Shown here: positions 54,352-62,648 of the stretch, piece after piece
Numbering within the stretch: the first letter of the stretch is position 1
Layout of the letters: each line of letters opens with the position of its first letter
Origin: Marinobacterium halophilum
GTDB taxonomy: Bacteria > Pseudomonadota > Gammaproteobacteria > Pseudomonadales > Balneatricaceae
Length of the DNA: 64,000 bases
Direction: 5' to 3'
NCBI RefSeq assembly: GCF_003014615.1
Contig: NZ_PYGI01000001.1
Coordinates: 1-64,000, forward strand
Program-made: the position numbers and the translations under genes
The notes under the pieces: generated by a model
The model's database searches: none
The model's input: the letters and a program-made list of their open reading frames with translations, nothing else
Told to the model about the DNA's origin: nothing

Positions 54352-55259
54352 AACAGGACGCGATAAAACGGGATTTGGTGCTGGTGGTGGATGACTCCCC
54401 GGATGCTCTCAGCCTGATCAACGATGTGCTGGAAGCAGCCGGCATGGACGTATTGGTGGCGCTGGAAGGCCGCCAGGCGCTGAGCATTGCCGCCCGTATG
54501 CCGCCCGATATCATCCTGCTGGATGCGGTGATGCCGCACATGGATGGTTTTGCGACCTGTGAAGCGTTCAAGCAAGACCCCGCGCTCTGTGCCATACCGG
54601 TCATTTTCATGACCGGCCTGACCGAAACGGAGAATGTCGTCCGTGGCCTTGATGTGGGTGGAGTCGATTACCTGACCAAACCGATCCGCCCGGATGAGTT
54701 GCTGGCGCGAATGCGGGTGCATCTGAACAATGCCCGCCTGACCCAGAGCGCGCATTCTGCGCTGGACACCACCGGCCAGCACCTGCTGACCGTAGCGCCG
54801 GAAGGCCTGTTGCAGTGGGCCACGCCCCAAACCCACGCCTTGCTGGCGCGGGCCAATGCCGACGAACTCTGGATTACCCAGTCACTACAGCCGCAGCTGG
54901 CCGATTGGCTGCGCCGCAAACCGGCGGTGAATGACCAAGTGGCGCTTAAAGGGCTGGAATATGCACTGTCGGTCCGCTTGCTCAGCCACCAGAGCAACGG
55001 CGATTACCTGTTCAAACTGGTAGACGAACAGCGGGGCACCGGCCCCGCGTTACTGCAGGCACAACTCGACCTGACCGCCCGTGCCGCTGAAGTGCTGTAC
55101 TGGATCGCCAATGGTAAAACCAACAAGGATATCGGCGAGATTCTTGGCATGAGCCCACGCACCGTCAACAAACACCTGGAGCAGGTCTACCCGGCGCTGG
55201 GCGTCGAAAACCGCACCGCCGCCGCCGGTGTGGCACTCAGGATTATGGTGCGGGAATAA
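54348..55259 (+). CDS. LuxR-family response regulator
   Basis: A 303-residue regulator. The N-terminal receiver (VLVVDDSPDALSLI, IILLDAVMPHMDG with the phosphorylatable Asp, IPVIFMTGLTE, YLTKPIRPDELLAR) is followed by a roughly 100-residue linker of unknown fold and a C-terminal LuxR helix-turn-helix (LTARAAEVLYWIANGKTNKDIGEILGMSPRTVNKHLEQVY). It is translationally coupled to the permease-like kinase and is its obvious partner. Target genes are not adjacent downstream, where mobile-element debris begins. Confidence 0.93.
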   Translation: MKQDAIKRDLVLVVDDSPDALSLINDVLEAAGMDVLVALEGRQALSIAARMPPDIILLDAVMPHMDGFATCEAFKQDPALCAIPVIFMTGLTETENVVRGLDVGGVDYLTKPIRPDELLARMRVHLNNARLTQSAHSALDTTGQHLLTVAPEGLLQWATPQTHALLARANADELWITQSLQPQLADWLRRKPAVNDQVALKGLEYALSVRLLSHQSNGDYLFKLVDEQRGTGPALLQAQLDLTARAAEVLYWIANGKTNKDIGEILGMSPRTVNKHLEQVYPALGVENRTAAAGVALRIMVRE

Positions 55260-55891: not shown

Positions 55892-55907
55892 ATGTTATAC
55901 GAAAATT

Positions 55908-55958
55908 AAGGGGGCAGAGTTGTTGAAAATGGTTCTATTGATAAATCAACTACTCTGA
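55908..55958. repeat. REP-like palindrome, left of the ABC operon
   Basis: AAGGGGGCAGAGTTGTTG is answered by CAACTACTCTGACA, giving an imperfect hairpin (CAGAGT-TGTTG with CAACTACTCTG). Its start nearly repeats the sequence at 62043-62060, right of the operon. Such GGGGCAGA palindromes resemble RAYT-associated REP elements. Confidence 0.55.
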
Positions 55959-55999: not shown

Positions 56000-57052
56000 A
56001 TGGGAATTACCGTAAGAGTCCTTGAAGCAAATCATGGAGATTGCATTTTAGTCAGTCATGAGGGTGCTTCTGGTACTGTCAATATTTTAATTGACGGGGG
56101 GACATCAGCGACTTTTAGACATGGGCTGAGGCAGCGTTATAACGGAGCACTTTGCCAAGCACTAGATGATATCAAAAGTAAAGGGCAGTACGTCGATCTT
56201 GCGGTGCTGACTCATATTGATGACGACCATATTCATGGCTTGATAAAAGCTTTTGAAACACCTGGTTACCTATGTGAACTCGTCAAATCTATTTGGTTTA
56301 ACTCATCCCGTTTGATTACACAATATTTTGATGCCCCTGAGATTCCGGAAAATAATATTCTACTGACCGACGATTCTGCTCAAACAAGTGTACGTCAGGG
56401 AAAAGAGCTTGAAACACTACTTGATGAAATTGGTTGTAACCGAGCTCCTCTCATAATGGCTGGGAAATACTATACTGTTGGTCCGTTCACATTGACAGTA
56501 TTGTCTCCCGAGCGAAATCAGCTAGAGCGGTTATTGCATAAATGGCCTTCTGAAGTTGAGGCAGGTGCTACAGCAGCTCATGATAATGATTACCAGCTTT
56601 CTCTAGAAGAAATTTGGGCAGCAGACGAATTTGAGTCAGATTCATCCGTTTACAATGGCAGTTCAATCGCATTTTTGTTGGAAGTCGATAATACAAAAAT
56701 GCTCTTTCTTGGAGACGCTCATGACCAAATCGTAGTGGAAAATCTCAAAGAACTAGGCTTTAGTGAGACAAATAAGCTTAACCTTGACCTTGTTAAGGTT
56801 TCACATCACGGCAGCCAATACAATACCAGTTCTGAGTTTCTTTCTATACTCAAGTCATCTCGTTACGTAATTTCGACCAATGGTACGAGACATGGTCTTC
56901 CAAACAAGAGAACAATCGCAAGAATTATTAAGGAAACTGATGGTCAGATTTTCTTCAATTACAGTGAAGTAATTAAGCCGTTGCTATTAGATCATGAAGT
57001 TGAGAGCTATGCCTCTCGTCTAGAAACGTTGGATGAGGATATCCGTCTCTAA
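56000..57052 (+). CDS. Metallo-beta-lactamase-fold hydrolase of a four-gene ABC-3C-like operon
   Basis: A 350-residue MBL-fold protein, related in pattern to the ComEC/Rec2 C-terminal hydrolase. Metal motif HIDDDHIHG at residues 72-80 (His, Asp and His ligands), GDAHD with D239, and SHHGSQYNTS at 268-277 indicate an intact dinuclear metal centre. It lacks membrane segments and a signal peptide, so is cytoplasmic. AAGGAG precedes the ATG; the protease gene starts one base after the stop. Phosphodiesterase or nuclease activity on nucleic acid or nucleotide is likely from family knowledge, but not shown. First gene of the operon. Confidence 0.88.
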   Translation: MGITVRVLEANHGDCILVSHEGASGTVNILIDGGTSATFRHGLRQRYNGALCQALDDIKSKGQYVDLAVLTHIDDDHIHGLIKAFETPGYLCELVKSIWFNSSRLITQYFDAPEIPENNILLTDDSAQTSVRQGKELETLLDEIGCNRAPLIMAGKYYTVGPFTLTVLSPERNQLERLLHKWPSEVEAGATAAHDNDYQLSLEEIWAADEFESDSSVYNGSSIAFLLEVDNTKMLFLGDAHDQIVVENLKELGFSETNKLNLDLVKVSHHGSQYNTSSEFLSILKSSRYVISTNGTRHGLPNKRTIARIIKETDGQIFFNYSEVIKPLLLDHEVESYASRLETLDEDIRL

Positions 57053-57053
57053 C

Positions 57054-58355
57054 ATGACAGTCTCTGAAATCATGCAGTCATACTGCGTTAAAGTGAATGG
57101 TGGTAGTGGCGTACTAGTAAACGCAATGACACGAGATTATTCTTATGTACTGACTGCTGCTCATGTAATTTTTGAAAAACGGGATGATATCGTTGTCCTT
57201 GATTACCAAGAGACTCCACTTGGCGTTTTATCTGTGCACATCCCTCCAGAGTGGATAGACTCAAAATTAGAGCGTTATGATTTTGCAATTTTAAAAGTTG
57301 ATTATCAGGAACGAGTGGCACAAAGCAGTCTTACTGCTTCAGACTTAATTTACCGTTCCCCTCTTACTCTTGTTGGGTTCCCCGAAACAGAGAGAGATTC
57401 CTCGGATCCTATTAAAGAATATATAGGGCATAAGATTAGTGTGGCTAATGAACTTGTTATTATGTCTCTTGATGGTGGACCTGGAACAACAACGATTAGA
57501 GGCATGTCTGGTGGTGGTGTTTATAATGTTCAAGGTGAGAAAGCTTTACTCATCGGTGTTGAGTTTCAAATGGATGGAACTGGTCGTGAGCAACAGTATG
57601 GACGTGTTCAATGCCACAGTCTTGCAAGGTTCGAGGAATTAATTATAGCGAATTCAAGCGCACCAATGATCCCCGCCTATTTGGAGTGTTTTTCAAATAT
57701 GCGGGACAGGATATTCTCGTTTAATGTTGTTGAACCAAATAACGTATCTAATCTTAAACTGGAACTTAAAAACGCAGCCGATTATTTAATCGAAAATGGC
57801 TTGCTTCCACCTTATAAAGTAATGGAGCAATATCACTCAGAACTTTTAGTCGATCCTACAAAGCTTGGGGATCTTAAAACCTATGAATTGTGGGTGGCAT
57901 ATTTGGAGTTCTTAGTGATTAGTGTATTGATTGACCAATCAGGGAGTGCAGATGATAGTTATCTGAAAGGTTTAGAGCGGAAACGTCGGTTAATATATAC
58001 AAGCGATGGTACTAATTGGATCGGTCACTTGGAAGACTTACTTAAAACTGCTCGTAGGCTTTTAGATAAAGATGGGACTTTGATAGTTGCTTCTCCTGAA
58101 CCAGCAGCAAGAGTATTGCCGCAAACATTTCGACTAGAAAAGGTTATAAGCAACATTTCTGTTGTTCCAAATAAAGGGCCATTCCCTGTTATTGATTCAT
58201 CTGAAAGCGCGATCTTTAAAAGCTTTAAATTGACCCACTTAGAAGGTCTTCGCAATAAGTGCGTAGTAGATATTGAAGATGAATATCCAAGCTTACAAGC
58301 AGGTAAGTTGCAATCGGATTTACTGAGAGAAAAGCTAAGTGAAATTATTAATTAA
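57054..58355 (+). CDS. Trypsin-like serine protease with C-terminal ABC-3C-type domain
   Basis: A 433-residue cytoplasmic protein. Residues 1-200 are a trypsin-fold protease with all three catalytic residues: H37 (LTAAH), D76 (YDFAILKV) and S152 (GMSGGGV). There is no signal peptide, unusual for this fold. Residues about 215-433 are a helical region without a recognisable motif, which I read as the partner-binding C-terminal domain that links effectors to ABC-three-component systems. The ATG sits one base after the MBL stop, and the end overlaps the next gene by 17 bases. Target unknown. Confidence 0.85.
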   Translation: MTVSEIMQSYCVKVNGGSGVLVNAMTRDYSYVLTAAHVIFEKRDDIVVLDYQETPLGVLSVHIPPEWIDSKLERYDFAILKVDYQERVAQSSLTASDLIYRSPLTLVGFPETERDSSDPIKEYIGHKISVANELVIMSLDGGPGTTTIRGMSGGGVYNVQGEKALLIGVEFQMDGTGREQQYGRVQCHSLARFEELIIANSSAPMIPAYLECFSNMRDRIFSFNVVEPNNVSNLKLELKNAADYLIENGLLPPYKVMEQYHSELLVDPTKLGDLKTYELWVAYLEFLVISVLIDQSGSADDSYLKGLERKRRLIYTSDGTNWIGHLEDLLKTARRLLDKDGTLIVASPEPAARVLPQTFRLEKVISNISVVPNKGPFPVIDSSESAIFKSFKLTHLEGLRNKCVVDIEDEYPSLQAGKLQSDLLREKLSEIIN

Positions 58356-58878
58356 AGGAATTGACCTAGAATTTTTATCTGGACAATATGAAAACATAAA
58401 GTTTCATATGCTTCGTTCTGATGATCGTCTTTCTTTTATATCTTGTATTGTATGTGTATGTGAAACGGCATGTGACATCGTAGATAATTGGCGATCTATC
58501 CAGAATATGGTGGCTGTTTATTATCAACATTCAGGTGGCTTTGATGCTTGGAACATGTATTTGGCATTTGCTTCTGTTGAAAAAATTCCTGTATGGGAAA
58601 AATATGAAATCGAAAATAATAAGTTTTCTGCGCGTAAAATAGTATTGGATGATTTTCAAGAAATACCAAATATTGGAGAGTTAATTACTGAGCTAGATAA
58701 ACAGTTATTGGGTTCAGATCTAACACTCGAAAGTCGATCATGCCAGCTAGAGGAAGGTGTATCGTATCTAGAAAACTACTATCGTGGCGCTCCTTTAGAT
58801 TCTAAAACTGAGTCTAGAGAAAAACGAGCATTGATGCTCGATAAAATAATTCAAAGTTTGAACAGTAATGAAAATTAA
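58339..58878 (+). CDS. Putative ABC-3C middle component
   Basis: A 179-residue protein I do not recognise by sequence. It has no signal, membrane segment or catalytic motif; it is rich in acidic residues and tryptophan/tyrosine pairs (NWRSIQNMVAVYYQH, DAWNMYLAF). Size and position between the protease and the SMC-like ATPase are those of the small middle component of ABC-three-component systems; similarly small adaptor proteins are known in other SMC-type defence modules. GTG start inside the protease gene; its end overlaps the ATPase ATG by 11 bases. Confidence 0.7.
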   Translation: MKLLIKGIDLEFLSGQYENIKFHMLRSDDRLSFISCIVCVCETACDIVDNWRSIQNMVAVYYQHSGGFDAWNMYLAFASVEKIPVWEKYEIENNKFSARKIVLDDFQEIPNIGELITELDKQLLGSDLTLESRSCQLEEGVSYLENYYRGAPLDSKTESREKRALMLDKIIQSLNSNEN

Positions 58879-61800
58879 AAAAGTTGAGATCGAGGCATTT
58901 CGAGCCTACCAATCAAAGTCAGATGGAACTTTTGATTTTACACATGATGGAGAAGAGCCTGCTAATTTTGTTGCACTTTATGCTCCAAATGGCTTTGGGA
59001 AAAGTTCTTTTTACGATGCAGTAGAGTGGGCTGTTACCAATCATTTAGAAAGGCTTGGTGGAGAATACAATAAATCAAACAATCAAAGCGCAGCTAAGTC
59101 GACTAAGAGTCCGAATGAAGGGCTAAAAATTCTACGCAACAAGTACGCAGACGAAAGAGTAGACACCACAGTTGTAGTGTCCACCAAGGGTAAGAGTACC
59201 TTTGAACGTAAGCTTCCGAAGCCCCGTAGGAATCAGATCGACATTCGGATAGGGGATTATAAAAAACGAGAAAATGATTACTTTCGGCGTGTCATTCTTA
59301 GCCAAGACGAAATTGATAGGTTCCTTCGAGAAGCAAAGCCACAGGAGCGCTACTCGAAGTTCATGGAAAGCTTTGGTAGCGATATTGAGACTGCTCGCAA
59401 GGAACTGTCCGCACTTATAAATGATAACAAGTCGGAGCTAAGTGACCTTGCTAAAAAACGTGAATCTCTGCTTGAGGAATTGAAGGAACCAATTGATCTT
59501 TCGATGTTTGAGCAGTTCAATTCGGTTGCGACTGAACTTAACTCGTTGGGTGAGAGTATTGTATTACCTGATGAAAATATTTCATCTCAGAGCGTTCATA
59601 AACTTAATGCTAACCTTGTGTCACGACGGCATGAATTGAATACATCAATCCATGCTAATAGTGAAATTCTTGAAGCATTGTCAGAACGTTTAAACAAAAT
59701 GCCCGAAATAGAGCTTCATGTGAGATATGAAGTAGAGCAAAAAACTAAGCTTTCTCGGCTTTTGAAAGGTGTTATTGACGCTGAAAAATATAAAGGGTTA
59801 TTAGACTCATACGAAAAATGTGTAGAGGATCAGAAACAGGCGAATCTGCGCCTAAGTCATCTGATTGAAATAGCTGAAAGTGCGGAGTTTTTTTTAAAAA
59901 CAGATTTCCGTCTTAAAGAGATAACTAAAACTAAAAATGATCTCACGGAAGAGTACTCCAAACTAAATGCTAAATTAGCCGGCTTTCAGGAAAACTTAAA
60001 AGAGTTAAACTACAAGCTTAAGATTGATGACGACAGAGCTTCCTTTCTAAGAAGTTCGTTGGATAGCTCTGGTCCAATTTATGCCGAGCTATCGAACAAT
60101 CGGAAGCGGTTCAACGAATTAAATCAGCAAATAACTGATAAAAAAAATGAGATCCAAGCAGGTAGTACCCAGCGAGAAAAAATTAGTAGTGAATTGAAAG
60201 AATTATCTGCTTTAAAGGTTACATCTAGTTTGTTATTAGCTGGAAATATGGGAGCCATGACTTTCGAAAAAGAAAAAATAGAACAGCTAGCAAAATGTCA
60301 CGCTGATCTAGATCTTCTCGAAGTACATACGCAGACTTTGCATTCTACTCAGAAAGCTTTAACAGAACAAATGGAATTGCATGAAAGGTTGATTTCCATA
60401 GGCTTGGATTATCTTAGTGTTGAATCCTCACATATTTGCCCTTTATGTACAGCTTCTCATCAATCTCCTGGAGAGCTTATAGATAAAGTTCAGAGCCAAA
60501 ATTTGCTGTCTGAGCTGAGTCAAGAAAACTCTAGAAAGATCTCACAGTCTTCAGCTCGTCAGAAGGAACTTAGAGATGAAATTCAAAAAATTACTCAGCA
60601 AGCAGTAGAGTCACAGGCTCAACAACTCACCGGCCTTCGCAGTAATCTATATGAAATTGGAGCTAAACTTGCTAAAGCTGATCAGGATATAAATACTTTT
60701 GCAGGAAAGTGCAAAGACTTAAATGAAAGAAATTCTGAACTAGAGAGCTCTGTTTGGGGACTTTCAAGTCAAGAGCTTGTAACTAGAGTCGAAGCCGAGC
60801 TTAGCCAGTTATCCTTAAAGCGGCCTAATCTTATCCAGCAACAAGCAAACTTAACTTCTCAAATTCAAGTGGCTACTGAGTCGCTTACAGCCAAGCGCGT
60901 TGAGTACGGTGCGCTAGAGTCTGAAATGGAGACTAAAAGTAGTGCTCATGTTTATGTCACAGTATTGACATATCTAAATGAAAATTCTATTTCTTCTCAA
61001 GATATAAACAAGCACTGCAAAATTAAAAAAAATGAACTTGAAGCAGTTTTGCAAGGATATAGAAATTCATGTGAATCTCTGGTTAGTCAGCGCCATGATT
61101 TAAAACAAACGATGATAGTTGATGGTACATGGGTGGACTTTTCACTGTTGAGAAAAGAAAAAGAATCCTTAGATGTAGCCCTCACCAATACTCAATCAGT
61201 TATTAATGCGTTTTATAATAGTTTATCCAACATCGTGAACACTAACTCTGAGGAAACATTAGAGCAAGTAAAAGTGAAAGTAACAGCTAAGATCGACGAA
61301 TGCCAGGTTCGTGCTCATGAGCTAGGAAAATTGCTAAATGGTGTTGAGCTGCTCTTAGCATTAATGACTTCATTTACGCCTTACATAAAACATATATCTA
61401 CTCAGATAGAACTGGATGCCTTAGAGCGGCAGCTAGAGCAGAGAAATAAAGTTGACGAGGTTTTAGTTGCAGAAAGGACGGTCATAATAGAAAAGCTAGA
61501 ATTGATAATTAATAAATTTTTCTTCGAAGACCTTATCAACTCTATTTACAAGAAGATAGACCCACATCCTACATTCAAAAAAGTAGAGTTCAAAGTTAGC
61601 TTTGAGACAGAAAAGCCAACTTTAAATATTTTGGTAAGTGATGGCGCCGGTGGAATGATATCCCCAATTCTCTATTTCAGTGCTGCCCAAACGAATATTC
61701 TAAGCTTGAGTGTATTCCTAGCGAATGCGCTCCACGCGACAGATGATGAAGGAAATTCTATTAATGTTATTCTGATCGATGACCCAATCCAATCAATGGA

Positions 61801-61999
61801 TTCGATTAACGTCCTTTCAATGATAGACCTTTTACGTAGCATATGTTTGCAGTTTGACAAACAGCTCATAATATCGACACATGATGAAAATTTCTTTGGG
61901 CTACTCCAAAGGAAAATACCTTCGGAAGTTTTTGGTTCAAAATTTCTTCAATTGGAAAGATTTGGTGTTGTTTCGCCAGTAGAGCCGATCCTAAATTAG
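58868..61999 (+). CDS. SMC/Rad50-like ABC ATPase with zinc hook, ABC-3C type
   Basis: A 1043-residue ATPase. Walker A is APNGFGKSS (39-47); long coiled coils flank a central CPLC zinc hook at 524-527, almost exactly mid-chain; the tail has Walker B ILIDDPIQSMDS (D971, D972) and the H-loop STHDEN (H1005). The ABC signature is divergent (YFSAAQ instead of LSGGQ/E). The head, coiled-coil and hook layout allows a Rad50-like dimer able to hold DNA. It is the last gene of the operon. Coding is AT-rich compared with the host core. SbcC is excluded by absence of sbcD and by divergence. Confidence 0.9.
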   Translation: MKIKKVEIEAFRAYQSKSDGTFDFTHDGEEPANFVALYAPNGFGKSSFYDAVEWAVTNHLERLGGEYNKSNNQSAAKSTKSPNEGLKILRNKYADERVDTTVVVSTKGKSTFERKLPKPRRNQIDIRIGDYKKRENDYFRRVILSQDEIDRFLREAKPQERYSKFMESFGSDIETARKELSALINDNKSELSDLAKKRESLLEELKEPIDLSMFEQFNSVATELNSLGESIVLPDENISSQSVHKLNANLVSRRHELNTSIHANSEILEALSERLNKMPEIELHVRYEVEQKTKLSRLLKGVIDAEKYKGLLDSYEKCVEDQKQANLRLSHLIEIAESAEFFLKTDFRLKEITKTKNDLTEEYSKLNAKLAGFQENLKELNYKLKIDDDRASFLRSSLDSSGPIYAELSNNRKRFNELNQQITDKKNEIQAGSTQREKISSELKELSALKVTSSLLLAGNMGAMTFEKEKIEQLAKCHADLDLLEVHTQTLHSTQKALTEQMELHERLISIGLDYLSVESSHICPLCTASHQSPGELIDKVQSQNLLSELSQENSRKISQSSARQKELRDEIQKITQQAVESQAQQLTGLRSNLYEIGAKLAKADQDINTFAGKCKDLNERNSELESSVWGLSSQELVTRVEAELSQLSLKRPNLIQQQANLTSQIQVATESLTAKRVEYGALESEMETKSSAHVYVTVLTYLNENSISSQDINKHCKIKKNELEAVLQGYRNSCESLVSQRHDLKQTMIVDGTWVDFSLLRKEKESLDVALTNTQSVINAFYNSLSNIVNTNSEETLEQVKVKVTAKIDECQVRAHELGKLLNGVELLLALMTSFTPYIKHISTQIELDALERQLEQRNKVDEVLVAERTVIIEKLELIINKFFFEDLINSIYKKIDPHPTFKKVEFKVSFETEKPTLNILVSDGAGGMISPILYFSAAQTNILSLSVFLANALHATDDEGNSINVILIDDPIQSMDSINVLSMIDLLRSICLQFDKQLIISTHDENFFGLLQRKIPSEVFGSKFLQLERFGVVSPVEPILN

Positions 62000-62041
62000 T
62001 TGAATGGAAGCAGTAATTAAAAAATGAATCAAGAGGCTAAT

Positions 62042-62110
62042 CAAGGGGGCAGATTTTTTGAAACTACCACCCCCTTGACGTTAACCGCAGAAGAACAATT
62101 ACTCTGCCCC
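62042..62110. repeat. REP-like palindrome, right of the ABC operon
   Basis: CAAGGGGG (62042-62049) pairs with CCCCCTTG (62070-62077); in addition GGGGCAGA (62046-62053) is inverted as TCTGCCCC (62103-62110). The start (AATCAAGGGGGCAGA) nearly repeats the left copy at 55905-55919 in direct orientation. Confidence 0.6.
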
Positions 62111-62231
62111 ATGTTCGTTCCACTCTTAGGCGGCTCAACTGAATATGCTACGGAGTTCCGCGGGCAGTTTACCTAATTCAATATCCGCTGATGGCCGGAC
62201 TTGGAGATAGCCGTTAGATGGTGCAGATCAC

Positions 62232-62300
62232 GTATAACAAGAGCAAGCACTCGGAACAAATTTTCGCTGCGTTACAATTTGTCCGATGTTGCGGGCATTA
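62232..62300 (+). other. Integron attC-like recombination site
   Basis: TATAACAAG opens the site. TCGGAACAAATT (62251-62262) pairs with AATTTGTCCGA (62276-62286) leaving one unpaired A, and further outward AGCAAGCA pairs with TGTTGC with two more single-base bulges. Extra-helical bases and the TTTTCGCTGCGTTACA centre are typical of chromosomal-integron attC sites. The right end is GGCATTAC rather than the usual GGCGTTA. Confidence 0.6.
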
Positions 62301-62315
62301 CACGATGTAAATAAT

Positions 62316-62648
62316 ATGAATTTATTCTTTATCCGTCCGGGTTATGAATCAGATCATGATCTAATCGAATTTAGCGGTGATCACCGATCTGATGATTTTA
62401 CTTCTGTTTTTCCCATATTGGAAAATGCTCTAAAGCCATCAAGAATTACACTGGAAGACTTTGTAACGGATGATTATGTTTGGGAATTCGAATTTGAGAG
62501 CGGGATATTCGAATTAAATGATGATTGGGGTGGCTTGTTTATCATTACTAAAACTAATCATGAAAATGTAATCAATCAGATTTCAAAAGCACTCGTGTCT
62601 TCAGGCTATTTTAAGGAGATTAAAGTTGATACAAGCCAGTACACATAA
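62316..62648 (+). CDS. Hypothetical protein in a probable gene cassette
   Basis: A 110-residue, strongly acidic protein (DDFTSVFPILENAL, FESGIFELNDDWGGLFI) of no family I recognise; no signal or membrane segment. It starts 16 bases after the attC-like site and ends just before a 21-base palindrome, as expected of a one-gene integron cassette. The ATG giving MNLFFIRP is chosen; an upstream in-frame ATG would lie inside the attC-like site. No clear ribosome site, which is common in cassettes. AT-rich. Confidence 0.6.
   Translation: MNLFFIRPGYESDHDLIEFSGDHRSDDFTSVFPILENALKPSRITLEDFVTDDYVWEFEFESGIFELNDDWGGLFIITKTNHENVINQISKALVSSGYFKEIKVDTSQYT

Follow-up and report, generated by a model that had tools for sequence, protein, structure and literature searches.

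A chromosomal Lamassu (ABC-3C) operon of Marinobacterium halophilum with a trypsin-like protease and a putative MBL pro-nuclease, and predicted threonine cut sites

The metallo-β-lactamase (MBL) nucleases of the Hachiman and AVAST defense systems are gated pro-nucleases, their active site being closed off by two disordered insertions that a partner trypsin-like protease cleaves after conserved isoleucines: HamM at I118 and I218, mapped by mass spectrometry, and EpiAvs1a at I134 (by blot and mutants) and I234 (by mutants) (PMC12799240). The experiments in that work were carried out on Hachiman and AVAST, and protease gating in Lamassu is put forward there as a model only. The Lamassu superfamily includes ABC-three-component (ABC-3C) and DdmABC systems, according to the available part of a review (PMC10586767). 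Upon activation LmuA is released and forms a tetramer (available part of a review addendum, PMC12409362), and the trigger is reported as DNA hairpins and DNA ends (available part of PMC12904381). Here, we describe a four-gene operon from the gammaproteobacterium M. halophilum, located in positions 1 to 64,000 of contig NZ_PYGI01000001.1 (this whole stretch of 64,000 nucleotides is the window), which encodes an MBL-fold protein, a trypsin-like protease (LmuA), a middle component (LmuC) and a Rad50/SMC-like ATPase (LmuB).

Gene content and identity of the operon

The four genes are intact open reading frames (ORFs) on the plus strand that fill positions 56000 to 61999, with successive overlaps of 20, 17, and 11 nt in the ORF listing (Table 1). 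The GC fraction is 0.36 to 0.41 across 56 to 62 kb against 0.60 to 0.62 across 50 to 55 kb, in agreement with an earlier note made from the letters of this DNA, which had described four tightly coupled genes in AT-rich sequence. Chance ORFs were ruled out by profile matches in Pfam and PADLOC.

The MBL protein matches Pfam Lactamase_B (E value 2e-7) and the PADLOC model LmuA (MBL) (1.6e-130, 433 bits), as well as PADLOC Avs1a (2.4e-46). The hydrolase is intact, as the earlier note had held: besides HxDxDH, the active-site motifs GDAH (at residue 238) and SHHGS (at 268) are in place. LmuA matches Pfam Trypsin_2 (1.5e-8) and PADLOC LmuA (2.8e-135), and its catalytic triad is present, consistent with the trypsin-like protease proposed earlier; among the 33 MBL-trypsin loci defined below, the His is conserved in 33/33, the Asp in 32/33, and the Ser in all 31 that align. 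A downstream ATG (M8) may be an alternative start of LmuA, and the ORF of the relative L039 begins there. The tail that had been described as helical does exist, and it is an identified Pfam family, CTD4 ("C-terminal domain 4 of ABC-3C", 7.8e-68). The 179-residue protein, earlier taken as unrecognized, matches Pfam MComp1 ("middle component 1", 1.2e-12) and PADLOC LmuC (6.3e-49).

LmuB matches PADLOC model PDLC03865 with an E value of 0 and 1012.6 bits, and Pfam AAA_23 (1.6e-14), and contains Walker A (GFGKS at 42), Walker B (VILIDDP at 967), and H-loop (STHDE at 1003) motifs together with a CPLC zinc hook, which bears out its description as a zinc-hook SMC-like ATPase. A housekeeping ATPase of the SbcC/RecN/RecF clade was rejected on the combined Pfam, PADLOC, and NCBIfam results: Pfam SMC_N (RecF/RecN/SMC) stays under its cut-off (33.9 vs 40 bits), and none of the four proteins had an NCBIfam match that passed a cut-off. 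A search of solved structures (E ≤ 0.001) returned no match for the MBL protein or LmuB; LmuA matched MASP-2 four times, weakly (E 0.058 to 0.095), and nothing else, and for LmuC there were seven matches at E 0.76 to 0.9, which is chance level.

Our sample comprised 58 loci with an MBL homolog, 33 of which, the window included, carry a trypsin-like gene directly downstream (the MBL-trypsin set). MBL, trypsin, LmuC, and LmuB occur in identical order in 15 of these 33 (the window, L003, L004, L039, L040, L041, L046-L050, L111, and L113-L115), with LmuB split over two ORFs in L004 and L050 and represented in L111 by a match of 213 aa only. Because the same four genes recur in order at these loci, the objection that they might not co-occur elsewhere fails. 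The four-gene loci range from Photobacterium, Pseudomonas, and Escherichia coli through to Bacillota plasmids, and RefSeq-derived annotation labels homologs "ABC-three component system". LmuC and LmuB were not found in the other 18 of the 33 loci; there the MBL-trypsin pair stands, for example, with Avs1b-like proteins (L052 and L053). In a Lysinibacillus plasmid (L092, 4998-9331), the trypsin-like domain that comes after the MBL gene is part of a protein with a NACHT annotation.

On these profile matches and motifs, the operon is a complete chromosomal Lamassu (ABC-3C) system whose effector combines a protease with an MBL hydrolase, which we take to be the Lamassu subtype called "hydrolase-protease effector". 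The locus is explained by a known system: the ABC-3C guess of the earlier note was correct, CTD4 and MComp1 being Pfam families named for ABC-3C, and Lamassu is the better name. Its remark that few, if any, ABC-3C systems have been tested is outdated, as members of the Lamassu superfamily have been challenged with phages and plasmids (available part of the review, PMC10586767).

Table 1. Features of the operon and its edges; positions are those of the window
Feature	Position	Strand	Basis
Flanking direct repeat (25 nt), left copy; overlaps a possible hairpin	55904..55928	+	88% identical to right copy; fold z -2.93
MBL-fold (ComEC-like) putative pro-nuclease, 350 aa	56000..57052	+	Pfam, PADLOC, active-site motifs
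Metal-binding motif HxDxDH, MBL residues 72-77	56213..56230	+	sequence motif
T129 (in TSVRQG), predicted as P1 at site 1 of the gating loops	56384..56386	+	alignment with Ile136 of Avs1a in L052, near EpiAvs1a I134
T191 (in TAAH), predicted as P1 at site 2 of the gating loops	56570..56572	+	matched by eye to Ile237 of Avs1a in L052 / published I234
LmuA, 440 aa, fusion of a trypsin-like protease with CTD4 of ABC-3C	57033..58355	+	Pfam, PADLOC
Catalytic triad His44, Asp83, Ser159 of LmuA (span)	57162..57509	+	alignment
LmuC, ABC-3C middle component 1, 179 aa, GTG start	58339..58878	+	Pfam, PADLOC
LmuB, Rad50/SMC-like ATPase, 1043 aa	58868..61999	+	PADLOC, Pfam
Zinc hook CPLC, LmuB residues 524-527	60437..60448	+	CPxC also in 10 other LmuB proteins inspected
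Flanking direct repeat (25 nt), right copy; overlaps a possible hairpin	62039..62063	+	fold z -2.61

Probable serial activation and the candidate cut sites

By analogy with the gated nucleases, the operon is probably a Lamassu with serial activation, in which the protease activates the nuclease. LmuB, together with LmuC, would hold LmuA in an inactive state by way of its C-terminal domain, and would sense abnormal DNA of phages or plasmids. After sensing, LmuA would be freed or oligomerized and its trypsin-like domain would turn active and cleave two disordered loops over the active site of the MBL pro-nuclease, where the cuts are predicted to follow T129 and T191. Once opened, the nuclease would destroy DNA, leading to cell death or growth arrest before the phage spreads. 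This model joins the gated-nuclease results with the reported release of LmuA and its DNA trigger. The analysis itself shows what the four genes are, that their catalytic motifs are intact, and that the operon order and both threonines are conserved; the triggering and cleavage steps are carried over to this operon wholly by analogy. The mechanism itself is published, to be applied here by analogy, and what is new is the specific threonine prediction. The earlier note had imagined a relay from the ATPase to two hydrolases; the two probably act in series, following PMC12799240, and not as parallel effectors.

We nevertheless weighed a Lamassu with parallel effectors, in which the protease would cut host or phage proteins and the MBL protein would cut DNA or a small molecule without proteolysis. 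Elsewhere in Lamassu, many effectors consist of a single enzyme (available part of the review, PMC10586767), and cleavage was tested for Hachiman and AVAST, with Lamassu modeled only (PMC12799240). Parallel action is unlikely, however, given that the MBL-trypsin pair recurs without LmuC and LmuB in 18/33 loci, that matched residues are constrained in both loops, and that serial activation has been demonstrated in two sister systems.

The window MBL protein can be aligned with Avs1a of L052 and L053 around the published cut positions, and it carries threonine at both candidate sites where HamM and Avs1a have isoleucine. Site 1 was placed by alignment; the counterpart of T191 sits in a gapped loop and its correspondence was judged by eye. 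Across 11/11 distinct MBL proteins of the T class, the window included, T129 is the sole invariant residue in 107-132 and T191 the sole invariant residue in 186-196. The protease of this operon seems to cut after threonine, in contrast to the published isoleucine, and we lean toward LmuA cutting the MBL protein at T129 and T191. The word "threonine" is absent from the main text of PMC12799240, although the pairing may already be visible in its supplements. Protease gating in Lamassu, so far a model (PMC12799240), is open to test with two point mutants (T129 and T191).

The same serial mechanism could operate with true cuts elsewhere in the loops, T129 and T191 being kept for folding or protease docking. 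The T/T loci form one clade, and the conservation of both threonines may reflect one inheritance. We consider this reading rather improbable, as site 1 aligns with an Avs1a isoleucine near a published cut, site 2 has a counterpart as well, and Met, Ile, and Val replace Thr jointly at both sites in other Lamassu loci.

In a hand-compiled table of the 33 MBL-trypsin loci, with site 2 read by eye and the 25/58 MBL loci without an adjacent trypsin excluded, the site-1/site-2 pairs were T/T in 12, I/I in nine, V/V in four, M/M in one, and A/A in one. The Lamassu loci were concordant in 15/15 cases (12 T, 1 M, 1 I, and 1 V) and the other loci in 12/18. In the partner proteases, Gly161 and Glu177 are present at all 12 T-class loci; in the other three Lamassu proteases, residue 161 is Ser and position 177 is occupied by Phe or Ile or falls in a gap, and among the 18 non-Lamassu proteases Gly161 occurs in one (L092) and Glu177 in none that aligns. 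Because all T/T loci fall in a single clade of the tree, this correlation with the S1 pocket is not separable from shared ancestry. We tentatively propose a paired cut-site code, in which both loops would share a P1 residue that shifts in step with the partner protease's S1 pocket, with a Lamassu Thr branch (Gly161 and Glu177), Met, Val, and Ile branches, and an Ala branch elsewhere.

A fixed rule was applied to 24 clusters at 60% identity, requiring the cluster's own site-1 residue followed by S/A/G within a loop-2 window; the tested offset was derived from the published cut sites, but the alignment had been inspected before the test. The rule held in 19/24 clusters against 9.9 expected (shuffle p 0.0005), and 15 of 16 control offsets were not significant at 0.05. 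The tree requires at least seven changes at site 1 and at least 10 at site 2, and the V pairs changed in the same direction in 1.6 of 2 cases on average and never in opposite ones.

Several points weigh against the paired code and the gating model. The shuffle test takes no account of relatedness; L108, one of the 19 clusters, scores through an unrelated Val-Gly outside any callable site, and the count was also elevated at the remaining control offset, -8 (p 0.034 for S/A/G; 19/24 and p 0.0005 for S/A/G/T). With the sites masked, the tree gave one (T), two (I), and two (V) supported independent pairs, none of them significant, and the sole T pair contradicts the pairing, site 2 being unchanged. 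Four of the 33 loci are discordant (I/V in L068 and L092, I/L in L105, and T/L in L086, whose protease has neither Gly161 nor Glu177), L072 and L108 are without a site 2 by eye, and site 2 is ambiguous in L085 and L092. Two variable stretches in the MBL protein are apparent by alignment, but the structure models are too poor to place them over the active site or to show gating loops (mean pLDDT, the predicted confidence score, of 47.6 for the MBL proteins of the window and two relatives and of 34.1 for LmuA of the window and three relatives). Finally, published Lamassu activation rests on a Cap4-type effector, unlike that of this operon, in the available parts of the sources.

Other loci bear on the residues at these positions. 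L107 (G1250), a divergent MBL protein on a long branch and of unsure placement, has Ala-Ser at both candidate sites and could represent an Ala class. Of 10 inspected MBL relatives that have no trypsin gene next to them, L078, L080, L084, and L094 have Leu-Gly at site 1 and in loop 2, and L077 has Leu-Ala at site 1 and Leu-Gly in loop 2; L087 (Tyr/Phe), L090 (Phe/Tyr), L069, L071, and L093 do not match. A matched pair may extend beyond trypsin partners.

If the matched-residue code is true, sequence could serve to predict protease specificity and nuclease partner in AVAST, Hachiman, DRT, and Lamassu systems alike. Such a code could insulate co-resident nuclease-protease systems against cross-activation, and it raises the question of why such systems do not trigger one another.

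Distribution and genomic setting

The distribution of the system is sporadic. The MBL model matched 8/390 (order), 11/398 (phylum), 6/369 (class), and 10/320 (another order) genomes at E limits of 1e-30, 1e-20, 1e-20, and 1e-25, respectively, where the window's own genome is counted in the first three scans, a few genomes recur, and several matches are not Lamassu. The LmuA protease model matched 1/369 genomes, which is the window's own. Homologs are found on plasmids and adjoining integrases. In E. coli, the DNA from MBL to LmuC was matched in 12/5426 genomes, over at least 80% of its length in three, and L114 and L115, which are weaker E. coli matches, have all four genes annotated; a homolog native to E. 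coli is available for a test of protease gating.

Two scans of viral contigs gave one relative, L111, with an MBL protein identical to that of L047, and phage records had MBL matches in 3/50,697 at 24 to 36% identity. Of the plasmid records with an MBL match, 22/66 and 1/69 from two scans and 1/5 (H5) further ones from a third were taken into the sample, which is uneven, Vibrio parahaemolyticus and Agrobacterium plasmids having been left aside by choice. An Acinetobacter ursingii plasmid (L051, 7211-11148) has kept LmuC (51% identical) and LmuB (62%); its LmuA match is confined to a 97-aa end and there is no MBL match in the stretch, which suggests decay or exchange of the effector. L051 stands outside the 33 loci, as does L002, where the contig start cuts the locus before any MBL gene. 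A Runella plasmid (L085, 763-6041) has three MBL-fold-annotated genes within 5.3 kb, interleaved with others, and a single serine protease gene lies downstream of all three.

The gene left of the operon was found in 43/144 relatives, the window's own genome counted, four of them other members of the genus; three further genomes of the genus are listed without it. In those four, similarity to the window ends near 55255 and other genes follow, in L027 on a contig that ends 3.6 kb beyond this stop. In L029, sharing resumes with an RNA methyltransferase gene, which starts near 67056 on the window's contig. Because genomes of the same genus with the left neighbor carry different DNA there, the operon lies in a variable interval.

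This setting bears on a further alternative, a housekeeping or repair operon of SbcC/Rad50-like type with no role in defense. An SMC/Rad50-like protein bearing a zinc hook would suit such an operon, but the bit score of the LmuB model, the sporadic MBL matches, the different DNA beside the shared neighbor in four genomes of the genus, and the homologs on plasmids and next to integrases make it highly improbable, and the Lamassu assignment is preferred.

The operon is flanked by an imperfect 25-nt direct repeat, whose copies may delimit a transferred cassette. A third, inverted copy lies at 62096-62111. A pattern made from both copies has no further occurrence in the 3.65 Mb genome, and a looser form occurs three times in the window against 0.53 expected. 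The repeat was not found at 11 other operon loci with flanks inspected; looser forms (GGGGTCAGA..) are present in L045 and L068. Scans for promoters (15 found vs 19.7 in shuffles) and terminators (8 vs 5.4) were uninformative. Immediately right of the operon are a 120-aa ORF (62286-62648) with no Pfam match and then a gamma-glutamyl cyclotransferase-like gene.

Comparison with described systems

The operon resembles Lamassu type II/ABC-3C systems (LmuA-LmuC-LmuB; DdmABC) in having an effector with a C-terminal domain, a middle component, and a Rad50-like LmuB in one operon. As far as the available part of the review (PMC10586767) describes them, the effector there is Cap4, whereas here it is a trypsin-like protease with a separate upstream MBL gene; LmuB is ∼650 aa there and 1043 aa here, and Walker B has a Glu-to-Gln change there and reads IDDP in the window. 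With Hachiman (HamMAB) and AVAST type 1 (Avs1a/Avs1b) it shares a gene order in which the MBL nuclease immediately precedes a fused trypsin-like protease (PMC12799240), and candidate cut residues that match between two variable loops; unlike those pairs, its sensor is LmuB/LmuC and the predicted P1 is Thr, where theirs is Ile. The Canu caspase-nuclease loci have a homologous MBL nuclease with two gating insertions (PMC12799240), which are predicted for the window protein, but their partner is a caspase and their loops contain conserved glycines (PMC12799240); perhaps, then, Ile at the cut sites is not defining for gated pairs. The E. coli loci L113-L115 share both the four-gene order and the T/T pair of P1 residues. 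L113 adjoins integrases and tRNA-Phe, L114 and L115 adjoin IS3 elements, and the DNA of L113 across MBL, LmuA, and LmuC is 69.4% identical to that of the window.

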